DNA from: Candidatus Mailhella merdavium
Lineage (GTDB): Bacteria; Desulfobacterota; Desulfovibrionia; Desulfovibrionales; Desulfovibrionaceae
Length of the DNA: 38,801 nucleotides
Assembly (NCBI GenBank): GCA_019119045.1
Contig: DWXS01000073.1
Coordinates: forward strand, 1 to 38,801
Reading direction: 5' to 3'
Shown: positions 1,361-20,286 of the stretch, piece after piece
Numbering within the stretch: the stretch's first letter is position 1
Layout: each line of letters opens with the position of its first letter
Position numbers and translations under genes: made by a program
Notes under the pieces: model-generated
What the model was told of the DNA's origin: nothing
The model's database searches: none
Seen by the model: only the letters and a program-made list of their open reading frames with translations

Positions 1361-1873
1361 TTATCTGAAGTTTCCATAGAAAATATCGTCGGGAAGATAC
1401 AGCTCAGTTCCTTTATTACTTTTCCCTATGCGTTGCAGCATAATTAATGAATCCGACATGAAGAAAATACCTGTTTCAATATATTTTATAAAATATTGTA
1501 TGCAAACATTCATTTTCCGAAAAAAATAAGTACGAAGTCGAATAAAAGAACAGCTTGTGACAGTATATACAGGGCAAAAATATATATATTCTCCTCGGGA
1601 AAATGATGCGTTTAACAATTTCCCGAGAAAATACAGTATGAGCATACATATACTTGGAAATAATATATATGTGAAAAACGAGTTGAATATAGTTGAATTG
1701 CGTAATAGAAAGATAAGCAGTATTTCAACAATCCATGTTGCGAATACGGATGCAAGAAAAAATCGAAATCTTTGAATGAAAAATTCTAATATAAACGAGA
1801 TTGTCCTTGCAAAAAGTATATATAATAAATTTATTCCTGCTATAATATATACCCATTCAAATATTGCATCCAT
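1361..1873 (-). CDS. Membrane protein of unknown function, paralogue of 949-1290
   Basis: A 170-residue hydrophobic protein with predicted membrane segments at about residues 6-30, 36-56 and 62-85, followed by a more polar C-terminal half rich in Phe, Ile and Arg that the shorter paralogue lacks. ACAGGAG precedes the ATG at 1873 by six nucleotides, a good ribosome site. It is the first gene of the leftward AT-rich cassette. The shared VE, FPxxC, G and FSxxEY landmarks with the downstream 113-residue protein indicate a tandem duplication with later divergence. No family recognised. Confidence 0.7.
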   Translation of the reverse strand: MDAIFEWVYIIAGINLLYILFARTISFILEFFIQRFRFFLASVFATWIVEILLIFLLRNSTIFNSFFTYILFPSICMLILYFLGKLLNASFSRGEYIYFCPVYTVTSCSFIRLRTYFFRKMNVCIQYFIKYIETGIFFMSDSLIMLQRIGKSNKGTELYLPDDIFYGNFR

Positions 1874-9998: not shown

Positions 9999-10556
9999 AT
10001 GGAGATACACGGAACCACCATAGTTGCCGTGCGCAATGAAAAGGGAGTGGTCATCGCCGGAGACGGTCAGGTGACCATGGGCGAACGCATGGTCATGAAG
10101 CACGGGGCGCGCAAGGTGCGCCGCCTGTACAAGGGGCAGGTGATTGCAGGCTTTGCCGGTGCGACGGCCGACGCCTTCACGCTCTTTGAACGCTTCGAGG
10201 CCAAGCTGGAAGAAAGCGGGGGAAATCTGGTGCGCGCCGCCGTGGAACTTGCCAAGGACTGGCGCAAGGACAAATACCTGCGTCAGCTTCAGGCCCTGCT
10301 TCTCGTGGCGGATATCGGCCATACTCTGGTTCTGACGGGAACAGGAGACGTCATCGAGCCGGACGACGGCGTTGCGGCCATAGGCTCCGGAGGCCCTTAC
10401 GCTCTGGCGGCCGCCCGCGCGCTTGTGCGCAGAGGGGGCATGGAGCCGGAGGAAATCGCCCGGGAGGCCATGAGCATAGCTGCGGAGATATGCGTCTTCA
10501 CCAACGATCATGTGACGCTGGAAAAATTGGAGATACCCGGAACCGTCAACGCCTGA
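9999..10556 (+). CDS. hslV: HslV, proteasome-like peptidase subunit
   Basis: The threonine peptidase core of the HslUV (ClpYQ) ATP-dependent protease. The N-terminus [12 protein letters not shown] predicts removal of five residues to expose the catalytic Thr, and the sequence is similar to E. coli HslV throughout ([30 protein letters not shown]). 185 residues encoded. GGAGG precedes the ATG. The partner ATPase gene hslU, often next to hslV, is absent here; fur follows directly. hslU must lie elsewhere if the complex is functional. Confidence 0.96.
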
Positions 10557-18811: not shown

Positions 18812-18888
18812 GGCAAGGTAGCTCAGTTGGTCAGAGCATACGGTTCATACCCGTAGTGTCGAGAGTTCAAATCTCCCCCTTGCTACCA
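18812..18888 (+). tRNA. tRNA-Met (anticodon CAT)
   Basis: 77 nt with encoded CCA. The acceptor stem pairs GGCAAGG with CCTTGCT, the D arm is GCTC-AGTTGGTCA-GAGC, the anticodon stem is TACGG/CCGTA with loop TTCATAC (anticodon 18846-18848), and the T arm carries GTTCAAAT. The paired first base pair and the lack of three G-C pairs in the anticodon stem argue against the initiator; elongator Met is most likely, with tRNA-Ile(CAT) less so. Confidence 0.95.
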
Positions 18889-18898
18889 TAAAAACAAT

Positions 18899-18929
18899 AA
18901 GAGGTTCAGGAATTCCTGAACCTCTTTTT
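18899..18929 (+). terminator. Terminator of tRNA-Met
   Basis: A perfect palindrome at 18899-18926 (arms AAGAGGTTCAGG and CCTGAACCTCTT) runs into TTTTT, ten nt after the tRNA. Confidence 0.93.
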
Positions 18930-19265
18930 CGTTATGAAGGCCCCGCTTCATGGAAAGAACAGCGGCTTCGGGGCAGGGCCGTCATCAGAGCGCGGAACAG
19001 CGTTTTTGCCGGGACGACAGGCCCTGCCTTCCATCAAAAGAGCCTCCTTCCGTCCGCGCCGCCCTGTGCGCCTCGTGACTCTGCCCGCGCTGTGTTGCCT
19101 GCCGACGTGAGAGACGCCGTCCGATATGATGCCGCCCATATTCATGAGCAAATATTATACAATCATTCTGATCATGTGTATAAATTTTATGCAAATTGGA
19201 AGGTGTATCGAGTAAAAAAGTGTCAGGATGAAAATTAAATTAATAATTTCAATATATTTCATAAT
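18930..19265. other. AT-rich intergenic region upstream of the sigma-54 promoter
   Basis: No gene recognised. From about 19140 the DNA is strongly AT-rich, which suits bending between an upstream activator site and a sigma-54 promoter. The block TTTCAATATATTT near 19250 loosely resembles an IHF site. Confidence 0.4.
19155..19183. promoter_or_regulatory. Inverted repeat, candidate upstream activator site
   Basis: Perfect 7-bp arms TTATACA and TGTATAA are separated by 15 nt, about 83 nt upstream of the -24 element. Size and position fit an enhancer for a sigma-54 activator, but this is AT-rich DNA. Confidence 0.35.
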
Positions 19266-19281
19266 TGGCACAAGTCTTGCT
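19266..19281 (+). promoter_or_regulatory. Sigma-54 (-24/-12) promoter
   Basis: TGGCAC (19266-19271) and TTGCT (19277-19281) match the RpoN consensus, and the diagnostic GG and GC are separated by exactly 10 nt. Transcription would start near 19292. An alternative reading is an extended -10 sigma-70 site (TGCTATATG), but no -35 supports it. Confidence 0.75.
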
Positions 19282-19291
19282 ATATGTCTGG

Positions 19292-19616
19292 GCAAAGCGA
19301 CATTCTCCCCCTCTGAAAGGTGCGTCGCCCCGTTGTACCGGGAATATGTCCATCTGCGGTGGACGTGAACGGGGCGACGCCATTTCAGCGTCAGCTTGCT
19401 GGCATGAAATTTTCCGCTGTTGCGCTTTTCGGAAAATGGCTGACGGGGCTTAGGCTCCGGGGGGATTGAGGCATCTGAATCCCGTCGGAAGCCTCCGCCA
19501 TATATTCAGGGGAATCAGGCACCCTTCCAACGCCTTTTCCATAAACTCCTCTCCTCCTTCTCGTGAAAGACGCCGAAAGGCCATCCCCTCCGGATTCTCC
19601 GGAGGGGATTTTTTTT
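19292..19616 (+). ncRNA. Candidate structured noncoding RNA, sigma-54 driven
   Basis: About 325 nt from the predicted start to a strong terminator. Paired elements in order: CTGAAA (19313-19318) with TTTCAG (19383-19388) enclosing a perfect 13-bp helix, 19322-19334 with 19368-19380, capped by GTCCA/TGGAC (19348-19352, 19360-19364). Next, CGTCAGC (19389-19395) with GCTGACG (19439-19445) encloses ATTTTCCG/CGGAAAAT. Then a long hairpin spans 19452-19494 (AGGCT, CCG and GGGATT paired with AATCCC, CGG and AGCCT). Last is the terminator at 19583-19616. The first two domains stack directly. It is GC-rich against AT-rich flanks. It does not match tmRNA, RNase P, SRP or the riboswitch cores I know; a 6S-like role cannot be ruled out. 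A 35-codon frame from ATG 19345 lacks a good ribosome site. Confidence 0.6.
19583..19616 (+). terminator. Strong intrinsic terminator of the candidate RNA
   Basis: A perfect 12-bp stem (ATCCCCTCCGGA with TCCGGAGGGGAT) around a 3-nt loop is followed by eight T. Confidence 0.93.
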
Positions 19617-20286
19617 ATGATTGTACCGACGCGGAAAAAATGAGCCTCAACGGGACTGAAAAAAGAAAATTTTCAGGGGGCTTAAGGCGTTATCGGCAGA
19701 TATTTTTCAAACGGCATATTTTTTTCATCATTCCCAACCCAGCGTGATAAATGGGCATATTCGATTTTCGGTATAAAAATACCTTATCTGATCCAAAAAT
19801 ATGGAGTCCGGAAATTTATTTCCAGATTCAATTATTTCTATATAATTGTTACTGATGTTGATATATCTCTGTAAATGAAATAGATATAAAGAAAATTATT
19901 ATGCTTTCGAGTGTATAAAACATGTCGTGAAAATATTAAAACAGACATATTGCATAGCCATATCGAGTGATTTGTTGTATGGGCGGCTTCGCTTTCTTCA
20001 GTGCATATGCCCGTCCTATGCAGTTTGGGAAAAATTTATCATATCGTGCATGTCAAGTTATATTAATAACAAACCGGCGATATATTGTCACAACCCATTG
20101 AACATTCATAAGATGTTGGTATATGGCCTATAGGAAAAAAAATAAAAAAATTGCTGGAAAAAAGTGGCGTAACATCGTACTCTGAAAAAAAGATACCTTT
20201 TCCCTCCAGACCAGGCTGATGAGAAAAGGGGCTTTTGCTCCAGGGCGTCGCCCGGGGGATACCTTCCGAACAAAAGAGAGTTGCGC
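19617..20286. other. AT-rich leader region before the Rnf operon
   Basis: 670 nt, strongly AT-rich to about 20190, with no credible gene: a 68-codon frame at 19927-20133 has no ribosome site or family likeness. It presumably carries the control region of the operon. The word GATACCTT occurs twice (near 20190 and 20258). Confidence 0.45.
20085..20125 (+). promoter_or_regulatory. Possible promoter of the Rnf operon
   Basis: TTGAAC (20098-20103) and TATATG (20120-20125) are 16 nt apart, about 160 nt before the cytochrome start. TTGTCACAA at 20085-20093, a near-palindrome just upstream of the -35, could be an FNR/CRP-type or Rex-like half operator. Both are tentative. Confidence 0.35.

Follow-up and report, generated by a model that had tools for sequence, protein, structure and literature searches.

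A predicted sigma-54-dependent structured RNA gene with paired upstream sites and a paralog in Candidatus Mailhella merdavium

The locus, its promoter and the predicted transcript

The window, by which we mean the whole stretch of 38,801 nucleotides that was analysed, is contig C41 of the 3.0 Mb Candidatus Mailhella merdavium assembly (G000). It carries a tRNA-Met gene at 18812-18888, followed by a terminator-like hairpin at 18899-18926 with T-runs on both strands. Further downstream, on the plus strand, lies an exact consensus sigma-54 promoter, TGGCAC-N5-TTGCT (TGGCACAAGTCTTGCT, 19266-19281). Judging by its -12 element, transcription is expected to start at about 19292, in agreement with an earlier estimate. 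The predicted transcript, RNA1, would be about 325 nt long (19292-19616, plus strand) and ends in an intrinsic terminator (19583-19617, plus strand) made up of a 12-bp stem (19583-19594/19598-19609) and a run of eight T. Since the terminator-like hairpin intervenes, the RNA gene is probably separate from tRNA-Met. An Rnf operon follows on the same strand, separated from RNA1 by the terminator and by a mostly AT-rich stretch of about 660 bp.

The promoter TGGCACAAGTCTTGCT is the sole sigma-54 match without mismatches in the window, where three other matches have two mismatches each. Considering that shuffled windows averaged 10.9 matches with two mismatches or fewer, the exactness of this promoter is notable but the number of matches is not. 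The region 19288-19620 folds at -142.3 kcal/mol (z -4.81), and none of 100 shuffles folded as well. The preliminary description of this DNA had reported the promoter, a structured stretch of about 325 nt, nested helices and the T8 terminator, all of which we found at the positions it gave. It had also reported a GC content well above that of AT-rich flanks. This applies to the immediate flanks (0.23-0.31 at 19150-19299 and 0.23-0.32 at 19700-19899, versus 0.52-0.60 across 19300-19599), but GC is not distinctive by itself, because 19000-19149 reaches 0.67. A sigma-54 promoter sequence precedes a putatively non-coding transcript, and the locus is best supported as a stand-alone structured RNA gene behind a conserved sigma-54 promoter.

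The RNA had been described as matching neither tmRNA, RNase P, SRP nor known riboswitches, and our searches bear this out. A scan of the whole window with Rfam 15 at gathering scores returned two tRNAs only. At E-values up to 10, the region 18890-20280 gave ten matches, all under their gathering scores and six of them over the terminator hairpin. The best of these, ylbH on the opposite strand, had an E-value of 0.001 and 28.5 bits against a gathering score of 50. With nothing credible at either threshold, a known RNA class was rejected. The Qrr covariance model, which we take to be among the 4227 Rfam families scanned, had no match in the scans of the window. A phage origin was rejected, as nine phage records matched only briefly and weakly (5-9% of the query covered, E-value 1 or worse), and so was a plasmid origin, with no plasmid match at an E-value of 0.01. 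No viral contig shared an exact 24-mer with the 5' segment, and literature searches found no publication on this RNA. As far as these searches reach, the RNA family appears new, while the kind of gene is already known. To call it a new class of RpoN-controlled RNA, as had been proposed, is too strong, since four ncRNAs of Desulfovibrio vulgaris have already been listed as sigma-54-driven (PMC4641369, PMC3333781).

Homologues, upstream sites and conserved structure

A blastn search of 99 genomes yielded matches in two, the RNA's own genome and the congeneric G017 (C13:45346-45703, 76% identity over query positions 11-367). The G017 homologue keeps the promoter, the folds and the terminator, including its stem and T-run, and none of 100 shuffles folded as well (z -3.98). 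It is convergent with yebC (Pfam E-value 1.1e-62) on contig C13, and ARAGORN found no tRNA in the 16 kb around it. The Rnf operon of G017, recognised by likeness to the Rnf genes of the window, lies on contig C12 together with the cytochrome that precedes the Rnf genes. Because the G017 RNA and its Rnf operon sit on different contigs and no tRNA is near this RNA, the Rnf and tRNA neighbours in the window are uninformative on function. The proximity to Rnf is thus taken as accidental, and a tie to Rnf or to nitrogen is not supported.

Two candidate sites for an activator of the bacterial enhancer-binding protein (bEBP) type lie upstream of the promoter. The distal site (TGTATAATATTTGCTCA, 19145-19161, minus strand) has no mismatch to the pattern TGYATAAWWTTTRYNCA, which was derived from the sites of RNA1 and the G017 RNA themselves, and recurs in G017 at nearly equal spacing. 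Four of its eight palindromic pairs are formed in the window and five of eight in G017. The proximal site (TGTATAAATTTTATGCA, 19177-19193, plus strand) is a near-perfect palindrome (7/8 pairs) centred 81 bp before the TGG of the promoter. At up to one mismatch, TGYATAAWWTTTRYNCA occurred at five distinct places in G000 and four in G017, versus two and one for the reversed control. Six of these nine places adjoin RNAs: four are the sites of RNA1 and the G017 RNA, and two form a pair on G000:C66.

The pair on G000:C66 is the only other pair in the genome. Inspection of this place revealed a second sigma-54 promoter, TGGCACGGAGCTTGCT, which lies 85 bp downstream of the nearer site's centre and is followed by a paralogous RNA, RNA2. 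Counted from the promoter, the proximal and distal site centres are 81 and 113 bp upstream in the window, 82 and 115 bp in G017, and 85 and 128 bp at RNA2. The resulting spacings of 32, 33 and 43 bp are close to three, three and four helical turns, as would be expected for an activator bound to one face of the DNA. Two sites arose upstream in none of 5000 shuffles, a test that is circular for the window and independent only for the RNA2 pair. Candidate activator sites are thus found about 80-150 bp upstream at all three loci. About 31 strong and three weak bEBP matches were detected in G000, none of them on the contig of RNA1; the weak ones mean little, because the bEBP family search also matches all 14 control genomes, archaea included.

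RNA2 contains AAAGCGA, a CTGAAGAA...TTCTTCAG hairpin and a CGCTTTTCGGAAAATG hairpin, and the contig ends after about 195 nt of it. Its local alignments to RNA1 and to the G017 RNA each scored above all 1000 shuffles. Covariance model R3, trained on the window and G017 with RNA2 left out, found the RNA2 hairpin at an E-value of 5e-7 in a search of 429,482 bases, every pair being standard and the next best match standing at 0.17. Sequence and structure are conserved between two genomes, the promoter recurs with paired sites at three loci, and one genome holds a paralog. RNA2 lacks the pyrimidine run of the 5' segment described below and its 3' part is lost at the contig end, so a mechanism common to the RNA copies is unproven. 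RNA2 diverges from a gene for an EptA-like protein with matches to phosphoethanolamine-lipid A transferases (NF028537 at an E-value of 6.9e-63, short of the curated cut-off; Pfam Sulfatase and EptA_B_N, both beyond their own cut-offs). An EptA-like protein 68% identical to this one is encoded about 4 kb from the G017 RNA, with genes intervening. This recurrence means that the G017 RNA may be an ortholog of either RNA1 or RNA2; in sequence it is closer to RNA1.

A one-mismatch copy of the activator site was also seen about 114 bp above a sigma-54-like sequence, TGGCACGCTCTTTGC, which precedes a macAB-tolC-like operon (L101 about 1380-1517; G000:C85, about 10189-10326). A gene for a NifA-like GAF bEBP lies downstream of this operon. 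The site search found no macA-linked TGYATAAWWTTTRYNCA site in G017, and MacAB-TolC as a co-target of the activator is a lead.

RNA1 is predicted to fold into three hairpin domains on the plus strand. Domain 1 (19313-19388) is a long hairpin that contains a perfect 13-bp helix (19322-19334/19368-19380, plus strand). All 28 of its pairs are kept between the window and G017, with three pairs changed on both sides and five on one side. Versions of domain 1 slid along the alignment keep at most 53% of cells, and its two-sequence covariation score was equalled by 85 of 500 shuffles. Domain 2 (19389-19445), a hairpin with the invariant CGCTTTTCGGAAAATG, is built from a 7-bp helix (19389-19395/19439-19445, plus strand) and an 8-bp helix (19409-19416/19430-19437, plus strand), and is the part best kept in RNA2. 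Among the three sequences, 4 of its 13 pairs are changed on both sides, a covariation reached by 14 of 500 shuffles and by none of the slid versions. Four of the 39 cells are unpaired, partly from one row shifted in the inner stem. Domain 3 (19468-19495) is a variable hairpin overlapping a 15-nt arm pair with 80% pairing (19456-19470/19475-19489, plus strand). The two-sequence consensus fold gives it three pairs changed on both sides; over the whole RNA this fold has 86 pairs, 11 of them with changes on both sides, with uncertain alignment across domain 3 and the terminator. Compensatory base changes among homologues, proposed earlier as a check on the RNA, are thus present in the G017 homologue and RNA2. 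Their number is small, as the RNA occurs in two genomes only and its conservation rests on few events.

In searches of 288 family genomes, the 5' model R1 (trained on two of the three RNA loci) matched four genomes at an E-value of 0.1 or better, two of which were accepted. The G111 match is a terminator-like hairpin with no promoter, and the G277 match is a different, short sigma-54 RNA candidate; neither was counted as a homologue. The G277 candidate (G277:C2:270300-270397; L064 1501-1598, minus strand) has TGGCATTGCTATTGCTATA, then CTTCATCCTCCCCCC and a hairpin with a T-run, and is divergent from a response-regulator/histidine-kinase hybrid gene. The hairpin model R2 (trained on all three loci) gave 18 matches in 17 of the 288 genomes, three strong and 15 weak, and two genomes with three copies were accepted. 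All 15 weak matches were rejected: fourteen have no sigma-54-like site within 300 bp, and the other, in G211, has only TGGCGATCCGTTGC. Both searches used stricter filters that are able to lose weak matches. A query of the promoter plus domain 1 at E-values up to 10 gave short matches in 15 of the 17 other congeneric genomes. None of the seven such sites inspected, in five genomes, was counted: those in G014 (C111), G016 and G018 are one recurrent stretch that is coding in appearance, and the G006 site and two G001 sites showed nothing RNA-like by eye. At G014:C6:79004 (L055 about 960-1025), a 19/20 match to CATTCTCCCCCTCTGAAAGG has GCGTCTTTCACG nearby, which is the reverse complement of a portion of RNA1's 3' segment; no sigma-54 promoter was seen by eye. 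Three convincing copies among 288 family genomes would fit a young, fast-changing RNA gene.

Pyrimidine-rich segments and candidate targets

Identity between the two species is uneven along the RNA, with many 20-column blocks in the first half of domain 2 and in domain 3 at 0.35-0.55. The 5' segment GCAAAGCGACATTCTCCCCCTCTGAAAGG (19292-19320, plus strand) is identical in G017 at 29 of 29 positions, and the complement of its middle reads as a ribosome-binding site and ATG. The 3' segment (19527-19582, plus strand), which includes CTCCTCTCCTCCTTCTC, has 50 of 57 columns invariant relative to G017, and its complement reads as a ribosome-binding site and ATGGAAAAG. On the other strand the two segments give GAGGGGGAGAATG and GGAGGAGAGGAGTTTATGGAAAAGG, that is, a Shine-Dalgarno sequence and a start codon. 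In the computed ensemble, the unpaired probability of 19300-19312 is 0.71-0.95 in the window and 0.43-0.99 in G017, and that of 19541-19557 is 0.51-0.99 and 0.31-0.99. Positions 19292-19299 are paired in the window, and CGCCTTTTCC (19531-19540) is mostly paired in both. The minimum-energy and two-sequence consensus folds pair the 5' C-run with downstream G-runs, whereas the ensemble leaves the C-run mostly open.

The complement of the 5' segment (a 13-mer with at most one mismatch) occurs at 22 places in the two genomes, including the RNA genes, and the 19 inspected showed no convincing gene start. The complement of the 3' segment (at most three mismatches) occurs at 55 places, 28 in G000 and 27 in G017, two of which are the RNA genes; the reversed control gave 11 and 12. 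We retrieved loci for 30 of these and inspected 14 chosen by eye. Several are gene starts, and two recur in both genomes, cytochrome c3 (two mismatches in G017, three in G000) and murA (three in each), the latter named by resemblance. The cytochrome c3 protein of G000 matches Pfam Cytochrom_CIII at an E-value of 1.3e-16, presumably the tetraheme class. A blast search with the 3' segment in its own genome gave five matches besides itself (E-values 0.19 to 2.3), three on the complementary strand and none at a clear gene start. One of them, at C22:8414 (15/15), has its complement ahead of a putative 138-codon frame starting with TTG.

Predicted pairing was compared with 411 start regions taken by a simple rule from about 15.5% of G000 (20 stretches of 20 kb, the window, L102 and L103), with accessibility left out of the duplex energies. 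With the G000 3' segment, cytochrome c3 ranked 3 of 412 (-37.5; background best -43.9) and murA 99 of 412; with the G017 3' segment, the G017 cytochrome c3 ranked 2 and the G017 murA 8 of 412, both on the G000 background, and all these ranks are biased because the candidates were picked by a pattern made from the RNA. The 5' segment ranked cytochrome c3 only 79 of 412. At the cytochrome c3 start, AAGGAGGAGAGG is perfectly complementary over 12 nt in G000; in G017 the run is 9 nt long. The 12-nt run exceeds that of all 411 background sites (maximum 10), and a 9-nt run is matched by 13 of the 411 with the G000 segment. A pyrimidine-rich RNA pairs with many ribosome-binding sites, and some background sites outdo cytochrome c3. 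As the candidate was pattern-chosen, some start sites pair better and accessibility lies outside the energies, cytochrome c3 mRNA stays a candidate target of RNA1 only, and one that we think is probably wrong.

Proposed function and relation to known sigma-54-dependent RNAs

Our preferred reading, with a probability of roughly two in three, is that RNA1 and its sisters are trans-acting sRNAs under a bEBP and sigma-54 that block translation by pairing with the start sites of target mRNAs. A bEBP would occupy both upstream sites, whose centres are about 81 and 113 bp from the promoter, and activate sigma-54 RNA polymerase at 19266-19281. The terminated RNA of about 325 nt would then present two largely unpaired pyrimidine-rich stretches between its hairpin domains, one near the 5' end and the other before the terminator. 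These stretches would most likely pair with ribosome-binding sites and start codons of target mRNAs and so prevent translation. The same activator probably switches on RNA2 too, which would give a small set of sister RNAs resembling Qrr. Activation, repression and targets are what we infer here from sequence.

A sigma-54-driven decoy or sponge, which would bind a protein or another RNA without pairing to mRNAs, as CrcZ, GlmY and CsrB do in their ways, is unlikely but deserves to be taken seriously. It would account for the best conservation in RNA2 falling on hairpin 2 and not on the anti-ribosome-binding segment, and for a length of 325 nt where simple pairing sRNAs are usually shorter. Yet by-eye inspection showed no repeated protein-binding motif, and the start-site complements are among the segments with the closest likeness between the two species. 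We regard as highly improbable a sigma-54 mRNA for a small protein with incidental structure. ATG frames of 35 codons in the window and 46 codons in G017 do overlap and share AFRKMADG, but the codons for AFRKM do not differ in any base between the three loci, third positions included, the frames differ in start ATG and in end, and for a ribosome-binding site each has only a GGGA near the ATG, not a strong one. The helices also covary, and no protein conservation was found across the transcript beyond this short stretch, which is likewise invariant at base level. That RNA1 is an untranslated leader or a riboswitch belonging to the Rnf operon would suit its position upstream on the same strand, but this reading is rejected as very improbable, given the terminator and long spacer and given G017, where the RNA lies beside yebC on a contig other than that of the Rnf genes. 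That an unrelated structured stretch merely happens to follow a chance promoter match is just as improbable, given that promoter, paired sites and structure recur jointly at three loci in two genomes.

The Qrr sRNAs of Vibrio are driven by sigma-54 and a bEBP, have siblings and are about 100 nt long. RNA1 resembles them in its putative sigma-54 and bEBP control, upstream activator sites and sibling RNAs, and differs in sequence, in its greater length of about 325 nt and in its three hairpin domains. GlmY and CrcZ are likewise sigma-54-driven regulatory RNAs; the difference is that the only gathering-score matches to Rfam in the window are tRNAs.

Closer relatives of the host offer a second comparison. 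D. vulgaris is listed with 36 sigma-54 regulons comprising 201 coding genes and four ncRNAs, the latter regulated by DVU0653, DVU0679, DVU1419 (also tied to the envelope stress response) and DVU2359 (PMC4641369). DVU0679 is described as targeting the sRNA Dv_sRNA2, of unknown function (PMC3333781). As described, the D. vulgaris Hildenborough ncRNAs are like RNA1 in having a sigma-54 promoter with activator sites, a non-coding product and a related bacterial host. Two of the four are reported to lie downstream of their regulator gene, whereas the contig of RNA1 has no bEBP match. The family of RNA1, for its part, was found in 2 of 288 genomes. The Desulfovibrio activator motif groups of Kazakov et al. 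have TGT and ACA 9, 11 or 12 bp apart (PMC4641369). The RNA1 sites have the same 17-bp span as the 11-bp group and share only its TG and CA ends, a loose likeness.

Across the family, a sigma-54-like promoter followed by CTCCCCC within about 40 nt was found at 28 places in 27 of 288 genomes, versus three for the reversed pattern, a count that does not prove selection for the C-run because the reversed control ignores real sigma-54 promoters. The places are of several sorts: some are coding leaders, another is a leader conserved across six genomes of a single genus, and there are two or more further sRNA-like kinds. At G026:C1:1794995-1795055 (L071 about 1440-1561, minus strand) and in G200 (L070), a sigma-54 promoter is followed by a C-rich RNA candidate in which TCCCCC is repeated. 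The L071 candidate comes immediately after a sigma-54 response regulator, an arrangement also reported for the DVU0653 and DVU0679 ncRNAs. In the six-genome case (L075-L080, genus g22) the leader AAGCAAGCTAGCTCCCCCGACTGGCTGCTGAAGCG, which follows a sigma-54 promoter, is strongly conserved. L079 is the sole one inspected for genes; there the leader stands before a small gene of the Metal_resist family and diverges from a gene resembling sensor kinases.

A wider scheme can be drawn, though it is speculative and we doubt it. An envelope-stress-type bEBP would co-activate the sister RNAs, and possibly EptA-like lipid A modification and MacAB-TolC export, while the RNAs shut down redox proteins that abound in the periplasm, tetraheme cytochrome c3 for one, by covering their start sites. 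Such a circuit, in a Desulfovibrionaceae lineage, would do with sigma-54 what the envelope sRNA circuit of sigma-E does.

The RNA is ordinary in kind, and the useful finding is the twin RNA and the paired activator sites. Neither of these, nor the segments complementary to ribosome-binding sites, figured in the preliminary description; the twin lies outside the window. The twin within one genome is a natural comparison of which segments matter. The purposes of the sigma-54 activators of G000 are mostly obscure, and a conserved RNA with paired sites gives one of its about 31 strong bEBP matches a defined output. If the cytochrome c3 pairing were true, sigma-54 signalling would be linked to periplasmic electron flow via RNA.
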